The position numbers and the translations under genes are program-made. From Entomomonas sp. E2T0 (GTDB lineage: Bacteria > Pseudomonadota > Gammaproteobacteria > Pseudomonadales > Pseudomonadaceae), in the NCBI RefSeq assembly GCF_025985425.1, contig NZ_CP094972.1:2604001-2668000 (forward strand): 64,000 nucleotides of DNA, written 5' to 3'. The notes below the pieces were generated by a model that had not been told where the DNA came from, ran no database searches, and saw only the letters and a program-made list of their open reading frames with translations. Shown piece by piece: positions 53,386 to 56,714 of the stretch. Position 1 is the first letter of the stretch. Each line of letters starts with the position of its first letter.

Positions 53386-53931
53386 CTATTTACGTGTTAG
53401 CGCGATAAACTCTTTAGCAAACTCATCCACTTTTTGCCAATTAGTATAATTATATTCCTTACTTAAATCTTGTTTTTCACCATCCATCCACATAATAAAC
53501 TTAATTAAAATCTTATCGTACCAAGTATAACGTGGATAACGTAAAGAACCTGCAAAAACACCTTTTAAAGTGGGTTTCCATGGTGTTTTTGCTAAAAATC
53601 TACGAGCATAACCATTGGTTTCAGGTGTATCTTTTCCTGGCTTTCTAGCTGTCAAATTAACACAAAAGAAAGCCGAGTTTTTTTCATTCAATGTTTTATA
53701 GTTCTTTTCAATAAAATCCAAAAAAGGTTTATCAAATTTGTTATAGCGAATTGCTGCCCCCATTAGAATTGTAGAGTATTCATTCAAATCTAACTCTGGC
53801 ATTTTCCATAAATCATAAACTTCATGTTCAATATCTTCAGCTTCTTCAGTCATGCGTAAAACTATTTTAGAGATGATTGCAAATGTCTGACCATCGATGG
53901 TTGAATACAGCAACAATGCTTTCTTTTTCAT
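53386..53931 (-). CDS. hemG: Menaquinone-dependent protoporphyrinogen oxidase HemG
   Basis: 181 aa flavodoxin-like enzyme oxidising protoporphyrinogen IX to protoporphyrin IX, passing electrons to the quinone pool. The FMN-binding loop is LYSTIDGQTFAI, and MGAAIRYNKFDKP, FCVNLTARKPGKDTP and AGSLRYPRYTWYD are HemG hallmarks. Length matches E. coli HemG. Placed near the bd oxidase genes, it would feed electrons into the same quinone pool and supply heme for the oxidase. Confidence 0.93.
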   Translation of the reverse strand: MKKKALLLYSTIDGQTFAIISKIVLRMTEEAEDIEHEVYDLWKMPELDLNEYSTILMGAAIRYNKFDKPFLDFIEKNYKTLNEKNSAFFCVNLTARKPGKDTPETNGYARRFLAKTPWKPTLKGVFAGSLRYPRYTWYDKILIKFIMWMDGEKQDLSKEYNYTNWQKVDEFAKEFIALTRK

Positions 53932-54628: not shown

Positions 54629-55489
54629 TTAATCATTATTTTGTTTACCAATTGCTTCCAATACATATTGTGGTAAAGCAAAAGCGGCATAATGCATAGC
54701 AGGATTATAATAACGAGTTTTAATATTTGCTTTATTAAAACGAGCCTTTAACTCATCAAGGGATGTATAGCGTAATTCTTTGTCTTTACTCCCCCAAGCA
54801 AAAGTCATATCACCACCAATATAAGTAGGCACCGCTGCACGATAAAAATGCCAATCCGCAAACAAGCCTTGCATTTTATTAGCTGTACTCTTTACTTCAT
54901 CTAATTGCATAAAAGGTGTGCCATTCTGAGTAACCAATACACCTTTTTCAGTTAAACAACGATGACAAGCTTGATAAAAATTCTCAGTAAATAAGACTTC
55001 TGCTGGCCCAATAGGATCTGTAGAGTCTGAAATAATTACATCATATTTTTGTGACGTATTAGCCACAAACTCCATACCATCGCCAATCACAAGCTCTAAT
55101 CTAGGATCTTGATAAGCGCCAGCTGAATGATTAGGTAAATATTTAGTACAAAGGTCAATAACCCCTCTATCAATTTCTACCATAGTAATTTTTTCTATGG
55201 TTGCATGGCGACATACCTCACGCAGCATTCCCCCATCACCACCACCAATAATTAATACACTTTTCACATTACCATGTGCCATAATGGGAAGGTGAGCCAT
55301 CATTTCATGGTAAATAAATTCATCAGCTTCTGTAGTTTGAATAACACCATCTAAGGCCATTACAGTGCCCATTTTTCCATTACGGAAAATGACTAATTTC
55401 TGATGGTCTGTTTGGGTTTCAAATAACATTTCATCAATACTAAAACGTTGACCATAATCAGGATACAGGGTTTCTAAATAATCACTCAT
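54629..55489 (-). CDS. speE: Spermidine synthase
   Basis: 286 aa aminopropyltransferase converting putrescine and decarboxylated SAM to spermidine. The ATG at 55489 has a GGAAAG site and gives [16 protein letters not shown]. The nucleotide motif [14 protein letters not shown] and the catalytic Asp in [11 protein letters not shown] are intact. No speD lies beside it. The fusion gene upstream ends 27 bases before this start, so the two probably share a transcript. Confidence 0.95.
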
Positions 55490-55516
55490 TACTCTTTCCA
55501 CAATATCAAATTAAAT

Positions 55517-56647
55517 TTATTGGCTGCAATTAGGGCAACTGATTTTACCTGTGCGACGATGATAGATCACTTCTGTTCCCTCATCTACTGGCTCACCACA
55601 ATGATCACATACAGTAGCACAAGTTAATACTTCTTTATCAAATGATTCTAAGTCAACAAACTCATCACCTACTTTAATGGGCCATGGTTTATCCTTTACT
55701 ACATCAGGTCGGAATTTTTCTTCATACTGGTGCCAAACATGGCGTTGCTCATCCGTTAAACCATGGTCTTTGAAGGTATCATCTAAAATAACACGACGAT
55801 GATCCATTAAATCATCTGAAATCACCATCCAATGATGTAAATTACGAGGACGTTGACCAAAATGAACATGTTCACGAGTAAACAAATACTTCATAAAAGA
55901 AAATTGTTTTTCAACTAAACGTGTTTTACTCACATTAGCAAAAAAAGGAGCTAAGCGTTCATCCTCATAAACTCGATCATAAAAATCGATCAATACAGTC
56001 CTAACTTTCGCACCATCATCTAACTGATGCCACACCTCTAAATTTGGTTCTGGGTCTGGCTTTTCTTCCGTTAGCCACATCGGTATTTGTTGTGAATAAG
56101 GGCCACGAATTTGAATCATTGTATCTGGCTGTAATTCACCTTGTAGCCAAGTTAATGTTGCAGGGGCTGTATCAGCTAATAACTCAACAGTAAGCACCCA
56201 CTCACCATCAGTTTCTACTACTTTAACTACCGCCTCATCAGTTGTACCATCAATGATTTTAAAGGTATCCCCTACTTCAAACTTACGACTTCTACCTAAC
56301 TCAATCGTAAAACGATATTTAGGCTGTGCTGCTGTCGGCTGCTCTACAGCCATTAAGAAAGCATCTGTGATAACATCATCAGGACTTAATGGTGCAATGG
56401 TCATATCTGTTGTTGGAATACAACGACAAGTCAATACATAGCCTTTTTCTTTTTGGTAATCTGACAAGCCAAGTTGTGCTTCTGCAGGGATATCACCCTC
56501 TAAACAACGCACAGCACAAGTTTGACAAGAACCACCACGACACGAAAAAGGTATTGAAACGCCACTACGAATAAAACCATCTAATACAGTTTCATCAGGC
56601 TTAATTTCTACTACATTCGTTTCAAAATAAACACGCTTATTTGACAT
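55517..56647 (-). CDS. Ferredoxin - FNR-like barrel - truncated globin - zinc ribbon fusion
   Basis: 376 aa from the ATG at 56647 (GGAAAT upstream). Residues 1-85 are a plant-type [2Fe-2S] ferredoxin with ligands C36, C41, C44 and C74. Residues about 105-188 resemble the FAD-binding barrel of ferredoxin reductases, ending MIQIRGPYSQ, but without its NAD domain. Residues about 212-316 look like a group II/III truncated globin, with LHHWMVISDDLMDHR supplying the proximal histidine (H271 or H272). The C-terminus is a zinc ribbon with C347, C350, C371 and C374. An electron-fed oxygen or NO chemistry is plausible; no function is proven. Upstream of speE. Confidence 0.8.
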   Translation of the reverse strand: MSNKRVYFETNVVEIKPDETVLDGFIRSGVSIPFSCRGGSCQTCAVRCLEGDIPAEAQLGLSDYQKEKGYVLTCRCIPTTDMTIAPLSPDDVITDAFLMAVEQPTAAQPKYRFTIELGRSRKFEVGDTFKIIDGTTDEAVVKVVETDGEWVLTVELLADTAPATLTWLQGELQPDTMIQIRGPYSQQIPMWLTEEKPDPEPNLEVWHQLDDGAKVRTVLIDFYDRVYEDERLAPFFANVSKTRLVEKQFSFMKYLFTREHVHFGQRPRNLHHWMVISDDLMDHRRVILDDTFKDHGLTDEQRHVWHQYEEKFRPDVVKDKPWPIKVGDEFVDLESFDKEVLTCATVCDHCGEPVDEGTEVIYHRRTGKISCPNCSQ

Positions 56648-56714
56648 TATTACTATTTCCATACAAAAACTAGTGCTATTGTACAGGTTAATAACTAAAA
56701 ATTAAGCTATTAGT

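Follow-up and report, generated by a model that had tools for sequence, protein, structure and literature searches.

The window analysed here is a stretch of 64,000 nucleotides (G000:C1:2604001-2668000) from the 3,315,933-base chromosome of Entomomonas sp. E2T0, an isolate from darkling-beetle larvae (PMC9872594) with a genome of 3,325,929 bases. Entomomonas is an insect-gut bacterium. Towards the end of the window lies a gene whose product combines a ferredoxin domain, a degenerate ferredoxin reductase (FNR) barrel, a truncated globin and a zinc ribbon in a single chain (Table 1). An in-frame ATG at position 56662 offers an alternative start and would give a product of 381 aa. A glycosidase-like gene is located upstream, with speE following about 16 nt downstream and a hemG-type gene a little further on. 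No hemG match was detected near the 64 other family loci examined, and a conserved link to haem genes was dropped on these grounds.

Table 1. Position of the globin gene, its predicted domains and its downstream neighbours in the window
Feature	Position	Strand	Residues	Details	Basis
Whole gene, Fer2 - degenerate FNR barrel - group 1 truncated globin - zinc ribbon	55517..56647	-	376 aa		ORF, orthologues, omega
[2Fe-2S] plant-type ferredoxin domain (predicted)	56372..56647	-	1-92	Cys36/41/44/74	Pfam, fold, Cys conservation
FNR FAD-binding barrel remnant	56078..56371	-	93-190	RxYS gone; NAD-binding domain deleted after GPY motif	model, alignments
Group 1 truncated globin domain (haem predicted)	55694..56050	-	200-318	TyrB10 = Y223, LeuE7 = L244, GlnE11 = Q248, HisF8 = H271	family profile, fold, conservation
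C-terminal zinc-ribbon tail (predicted)	55520..55693	-	319-376	CxxC-x20-CxxC	four Cys kept, weak family matches
speE (spermidine synthase)	54629..55501	-		not counted as part of the system	same strand as globin gene
hemG-type menaquinone-dependent protoporphyrinogen IX dehydrogenase	53386-53931	-			

Orthologues of the gene were identified within the genus (L003 and L005, together with a broken copy, L004). Comparison with the nearest congener gave an omega of 0.02-0.05 in every domain, which indicates purifying selection, and the ORF is for this reason considered a real gene rather than a chance composite or an artefact of annotation. The broken copy, the fourth in the genus (L004:1078-2202 / L076), was found in a metagenome-assembled genome labelled Ventosimonas and has an in-frame stop within the barrel remnant, for which decay and assembly error are both possible explanations. 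No relatives were found among viral contigs and no full-length match on plasmids, and a phage origin of the gene and its spread by plasmids were rejected.

The position of the gene directly upstream of speE had been taken in the preliminary description as a hint of a link to polyamine or oxidative chemistry. A co-directional speE is indeed found about the same distance away in all four genus members, which would suit an oxidative enzyme of polyamine metabolism acting together with SpeE. However, none of the 64 other family loci has an adjacent speE, the neighbours in Saezia, which is the closest relative outside the genus, are uvrA-like and pyrF-like, and the gene cassette described below contains no polyamine-related gene. 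The adjacency is thus restricted to the genus, the suggested link is abandoned, and a role in polyamine metabolism appears highly improbable.

The N-terminal domain is predicted to be an intact ferredoxin of the [2Fe-2S] type. It was recognised by Pfam as Fer2 (E 4e-16) and matched plant-type ferredoxins both by sequence (E 3e-16) and by fold in an AlphaFold model (Z ~14.5), and the ordered cluster cysteines, already pointed out in the preliminary description, were found to be unvarying in 47 of 47 relatives. The model of the whole protein has a pLDDT of 86.6 and a pTM of 0.50, and was accordingly trusted for single domains and not for their arrangement. Its residues 3-185 align with the ferredoxin and FAD-barrel half of the reductase GcoB (5ogx) with a Z of 14.7 over 175 residues. 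The rmsd for the two domains together is 10.6 Å, the mutual orientation of the domains either being different or left unfixed by the model. A beta-barrel that aligns with the barrels of GcoB and T4moF is present (at this high two-domain rmsd), with a pLDDT mostly of 80-93 that falls to 65-68 near its end. The FNR-like fold proposed for this segment was therefore recovered, while its proposed identity as a flavin domain was not. At the position of the RxYS/T flavin motif the window protein reads DEAVVKVV. This motif is absent from all relatives of the same architecture, and half-decayed versions of it (KARFSLA and RARYLLA) were seen in copies from Gallionella and Nitrosomonadales. The barrel is only 51% identical to that of the congener, against 82-88% in the neighbouring domains, and 23% identical to that of Saezia, against 47-73%. 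Because of the loss of RxYS and this much faster divergence, the barrel is probably no flavin domain now. Alignment with longer relatives also confirmed that the NAD-binding half is missing between barrel and globin, and since both the flavin motif and the NAD half are lost the barrel is referred to here as a remnant.

The globin was below threshold when the window sequence alone was submitted to Pfam (19.3 bits against 21). A profile of the family, on the other hand, matched group 1 truncated haemoglobins, with an E of 4e-12 to 3aq5 (Tetrahymena group 1 proteins) and of about 1e-9 to cyanoglobins, and the modelled domain superposes on trHbN of Shewanella benthica (7tt9) with a Z of 13.6 and 2.0 Å over 113 residues. 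TyrB10 and the proximal HisF8 are unvarying in 47 of 47 relatives, position E11 is occupied by Gln in 38 of them and by Val in nine, and E7 is variable. By its 2/2 fold, its profile and these two residues the domain is assigned to the group 1 truncated haemoglobins and is predicted to bind haem. The distal pair TyrB10 and GlnE11 is that of trHbN of Mycobacterium tuberculosis, which is an NO dioxygenase. The C-terminal tail carries two CxxC knuckles (Cys347, 350, 371 and 374), likewise unvarying in 47 of 47 relatives, and is predicted to bind zinc; its Pfam matches are weak and under the cut-off (Zn_ribbon_3, E 0.029; L24e, E 0.09). The truncated-globin-like region and the four-cysteine ribbon of the preliminary description were both upheld by these results, as was the domain order with the ferredoxin first. 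The structure prediction that had been suggested as a check returned a globin fold with HisF8 and a middle region resembling a ferredoxin reductase barrel.

The same conservation data bear on the possibility that the protein is a structural or adaptor protein, in which the globin fold, ferredoxin and zinc ribbon serve for protein contacts and the haem and cluster have no catalytic or sensing role. The degenerate and fast-evolving barrel, the tolerance of domain-wise loss in the family (see below), the variable E7 and the Val at E11 in some relatives would all agree with such a function. An adaptor would not need HisF8, TyrB10 and the four cluster cysteines, however, and the fact that these are invariant across the 47 sequences, the window protein included, makes the explanation improbable.

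Whole-protein searches gave full-length matches within the genus only, which at first made the protein appear to be an oddity of Entomomonas. A profile of the core formed by the globin and zinc ribbon then revealed a wider family of 133 relatives in genome contigs from Pseudomonadota, Myxococcota, Acidobacteriota, Nitrospirota, Gemmatimonadota and other phyla, of which 80 were fetched and examined. The core, 72-73% identical between the window protein and Saezia, is homologous throughout and is the part common to all members. Half of the relatives examined (40 of 80, broken pieces included) are full-length proteins of ~530 aa with the order Fer2-FAD-NAD-truncated globin-zinc ribbon, and the intact ones among them nearly all possess RxYS and mostly a GTG-type NAD motif. 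In one such protein Pfam recognised Fer2, FAD_binding_6, NAD_binding_1 and Bac_globin, and the AlphaFold model of a full-length relative matches GcoB over residues 1-321 with a Z of 31.6. The architecture of the window protein, a barrel lacking RxYS with no NAD domain, was found in 16 relatives. In 12 others the ferredoxin is joined directly to the globin without any reductase, and in a further 12 the ferredoxin is also gone, leaving only globin and zinc ribbon. A single clade containing all the window-type proteins was rejected by the AU test (p 0.0007), ruling out a single loss of the reductase for this type. This suggests, for an unrooted tree and on condition that the full-length form is ancestral, that the flavin and NAD machinery was lost more than once. 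The window protein belongs, in shortened form, to this widespread bacterial family, whose members are electron-linked truncated globins of group 1 that end in a zinc ribbon.

Two other arrangements were noted among the sequences collected. In Gallionella a stand-alone truncated globin lies beside a Fer2-FNR reductase, near a window-type gene (L108:8369-9697), and could represent a split fusion; this stand-alone reductase is 41% identical to the fused one. A number of distant matches (L048, L058 and similar) are apparent double globins of ~300-380 aa, in which a 3/3-like globin at the N-terminus precedes a truncated one.

Since the full-length relatives keep the whole Fer2-FAD-NAD chain ahead of the same globin and zinc ribbon, they correspond in design to a flavohaemoglobin based on a truncated globin, and the analogy with flavohaemoglobins that had been drawn from the window protein fits them well. 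As in the NO dioxygenase Hmp, the globin shares a chain with an FNR-type reductase and electrons would pass from NADH through flavin to haem. The differences are that Hmp has an N-terminal 3/3 globin, whereas the 2/2 globin of this family is on the C-terminal side, preceded by a [2Fe-2S] domain and followed by a zinc ribbon. The window protein, with its eroded reductase, has neither the N-terminal 3/3 globin nor the NAD-binding domain in the same chain that mark a flavohaemoglobin. Nor does it resemble a globin-coupled sensor of the S family, as its globin is of the group 1 truncated kind instead of an N-terminal sensor-type 3/3 globin and the chain has no transmitter domain. Reductases of the GcoB and PRK05713 type have the Fer2, FAD and NAD domains in the order of the full-length relatives (NCBIfam PRK05713, E 4e-52, below the cut-off) and differ in having no globin or zinc ribbon; the window protein for its part lacks their flavin motif and NAD domain. 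In raphidophytes the nitrate reductase NR2-2/2HbN carries an inserted 2/2 haemoglobin (PMC3820574), which likewise unites a truncated globin with an FNR-type reductase, but in a eukaryotic nitrate reductase chain with another set of domains. In Legionella a truncated globin, glbN, is paired with a ferredoxin-type reductase, as in the present family, but as separate proteins in one operon under NsrR (PMC3820574). Compared by description, the review indicates no zinc ribbon or GTPase/phosphatase cassette in the Legionella operon. Searches of the openly licensed literature returned such partial precedents only. Neither the family nor the fusion nor the cassette was found described in it, which is weak evidence given the restriction to open papers, and the family is apparently undescribed.

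Clustering of the ORFs around the relatives revealed a recurrent operon. In it the genes for an uncharacterised protein and a small Ras-like GTPase are followed by that of the ABC-phosphatase, according to Pfam a fusion of an ABC ATPase with a dual-specificity tyrosine phosphatase, and then by those of a 135-aa roadblock-like protein (RB1) and a Roadblock/LC7 protein, with the globin gene last. The assignment of RB1 as a roadblock protein is tentative, since the profile match behind it is weak (41% probability, E 3e-4) and neither Pfam nor PDB sequences confirmed it. In a tblastn survey of the 57 loci flanked on each side by 3 kb or more of sequence, RB1 or the ABC-phosphatase adjoins the globin gene in 40, often with the Ras-like GTPase and Roadblock/LC7 proteins as well. 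The cassette accompanies all four architectures, namely the full-length type in 23 of 28 loci, the window type in 7 of 12, ferredoxin-globin in 7 of 10 and globin-zinc ribbon in 3 of 7. Window-type genes with the cassette include those of Polaromonas, Azonexus, Acinetobacter junii, Gallionella and Methylotenera. There was no PADLOC match for the globin protein and the ATPase gave only ABC-type matches, and a defence system was rejected.

Small Ras-like GTPases occur in one operon with Roadblock/LC7 proteins in the MglA/MglB and conservon systems too, which the cassette resembles in this respect; in the passages found on these systems (PMC4316618, PMC13343842) neither an ABC ATPase-phosphatase fusion nor a haem protein is reported. 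That a globin may act on a roadblock protein has its precedent in HGbRL of Methylacidiphilum, a globin-Roadblock/LC7 fusion proposed to be a sensor (PMC4476040). It links a haem globin to a regulator of small GTPases, but its globin is non-truncated and is fused directly to the roadblock domain, without ferredoxin, reductase or zinc ribbon. It should also be noted that in one gammaproteobacterial group (L145:4548-4961 and similar) the place of the second roadblock gene, immediately ahead of the fusion gene, is taken by a gene for a CxxCxxCC protein, putatively metal-chelating.

In Entomomonas itself no cassette genes lie beside the window gene. RB1 and the ABC-phosphatase are present side by side 1.35 Mb away (G000:C1:1305583-1307652), and are likewise paired in the congeners. 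On one side the pair adjoins metF-like and ahcY-like genes, and beyond its opposite end lie a LysR-type regulator and a PilS/PilR-like gene pair (L195:5578-7680). In an Azonexaceae locus (L114) the same metF-like and ahcY-like neighbours flank both cassette and globin gene. Three further cassettes with a small GTPase and Roadblock-type proteins were observed in Entomomonas (L202, G000:C1:2004000-2016000; L203, G000:C1:3309000-3315900), which include a protein of unknown function of 216-437 aa; two of them are in tandem near a PilT/PilU-like gene.

Across genomes, the globin and RB1 were found to occur together. RB1 is present in three of 390 Pseudomonadales genomes, and these are the three with an intact globin-zinc-ribbon protein (Fisher p 4e-7). 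A set of 312 class genomes contains four with both genes, two with RB1 only and none with the globin only (p 4e-8); a weak RB1-like match in G944 (6e-21) was left out of the count. Ten of 11 genomes carrying the globin gene contain RB1, the eleventh being a 65%-complete genome with a broken gene. As exceptions, two genomes (G489 and G496) have the ABC-phosphatase/RB1 pair without a detectable globin protein. RB1 homologues with 36-41% identity, annotated as hypothetical, were also seen on Ruegeria plasmids (L210, L211 and L212), where a conserved operon combines them with a Ser/Thr kinase and four proteins of the dynamin family and contains no globin. These surroundings point to a role of RB1 with NTPases in general, and together with the two exceptional genomes they indicate that the cassette can exist without a globin input.

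It is plausible that the window protein is electron-fed and reacts with O2 or NO, as first proposed. In the full-length chain electrons would pass from NADH to FAD, then to the [2Fe-2S] cluster and the haem. In Entomomonas the barrel may be kept as a fold or a spacer, and an outside donor would be needed as the NAD domain is gone and the barrel is only a remnant; electrons, if still required, would enter the ferredoxin domain from another protein. A ferredoxin-NADP reductase, Fpr, is present in the genome (identified from its sequence) and could reduce this domain.

The main rival to a signalling function is that the protein is a turning-over enzyme, an NO dioxygenase or O2-reducing enzyme comparable to flavohaemoglobin, whose ferredoxin domain receives electrons from a separate reductase, for example Fpr, and which the cassette either regulates or neighbours by accident. 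The complete NADH-FAD-[2Fe-2S]-globin chains of the full-length relatives speak for it, and the retention of the whole NADH reductase in half of the relatives suits a catalytic role no less than a sensing one. The distal TyrB10 and GlnE11 shared with the mycobacterial protein, the presence of Fpr in Entomomonas and the adjoining globin and Fer2-FNR pair of Gallionella point the same way, and the NsrR-controlled operon of Legionella (PMC3820574) also keeps the explanation alive. Against it, the Entomomonas genome already encodes a complete Hmp adjoining a NorR-like gene (both identified from sequence), and with Fpr and this Hmp in the same genome bulk detoxification of NO is unlikely as the sole role. 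Furthermore, NO dioxygenation has no need of a zinc ribbon, and the reductase and even the ferredoxin have repeatedly been lost while globin, zinc ribbon and cassette stay. As an account of the window protein, catalysis of this kind is thus regarded as rather unlikely.

The reading considered best, with about an even chance of being correct, is that the protein is a haem/[2Fe-2S] input component of the phosphatase/GTPase signalling cassette. An input module fits better than a turning-over enzyme because the core stays with the cassette while its electron feeds vary and vanish, and the conserved partner genes favour signalling over stand-alone detoxification. The window protein is accordingly more likely a gas or redox input to the cassette than a plain NO-removing enzyme. 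The separation of the globin gene from the cassette in Entomomonas counts against the signalling function. The haem ligand, O2 or NO, and the reduction state of the haem would most likely be what the phosphatase/GTPase switch receives as input, and partner proteins would probably be contacted through the zinc ribbon. The ligand, the direction of signalling and the physical contact are inferred here, as is the occupancy of the haem, [2Fe-2S] and zinc sites, whereas the architecture, the conserved ligand residues, the recurring reductase loss, the association in operons and the co-occurrence across genomes are shown. A more specific proposal, with somewhat less than an even chance, is that of an undescribed bacterial signalling system built around a truncated globin as sensor of NO or O2. 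A ferredoxin reductase, either in the same chain or external, would keep this globin reducible, and the globin would control the ABC ATPase-tyrosine phosphatase together with the switch formed by the Ras-like GTPase and roadblock proteins.

If this is true, a haem-gated, G-protein-like pathway would exist in several phyla, with graded architectures that show the reductase being shed. Flavohaemoglobins are the textbook globin-reductase fusion, and the present family is a second one, independently arrived at and based on a truncated globin, which is found in several phyla and associated with a GTPase/phosphatase cassette. That cassette provides a concrete, testable set of partners for a family of globins whose physiological roles are often unclear. 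The series of architectures, from full reductase through flavin-less remnant and ferredoxin only to globin only, is a natural deletion experiment by which sensing could be told apart from catalysis.
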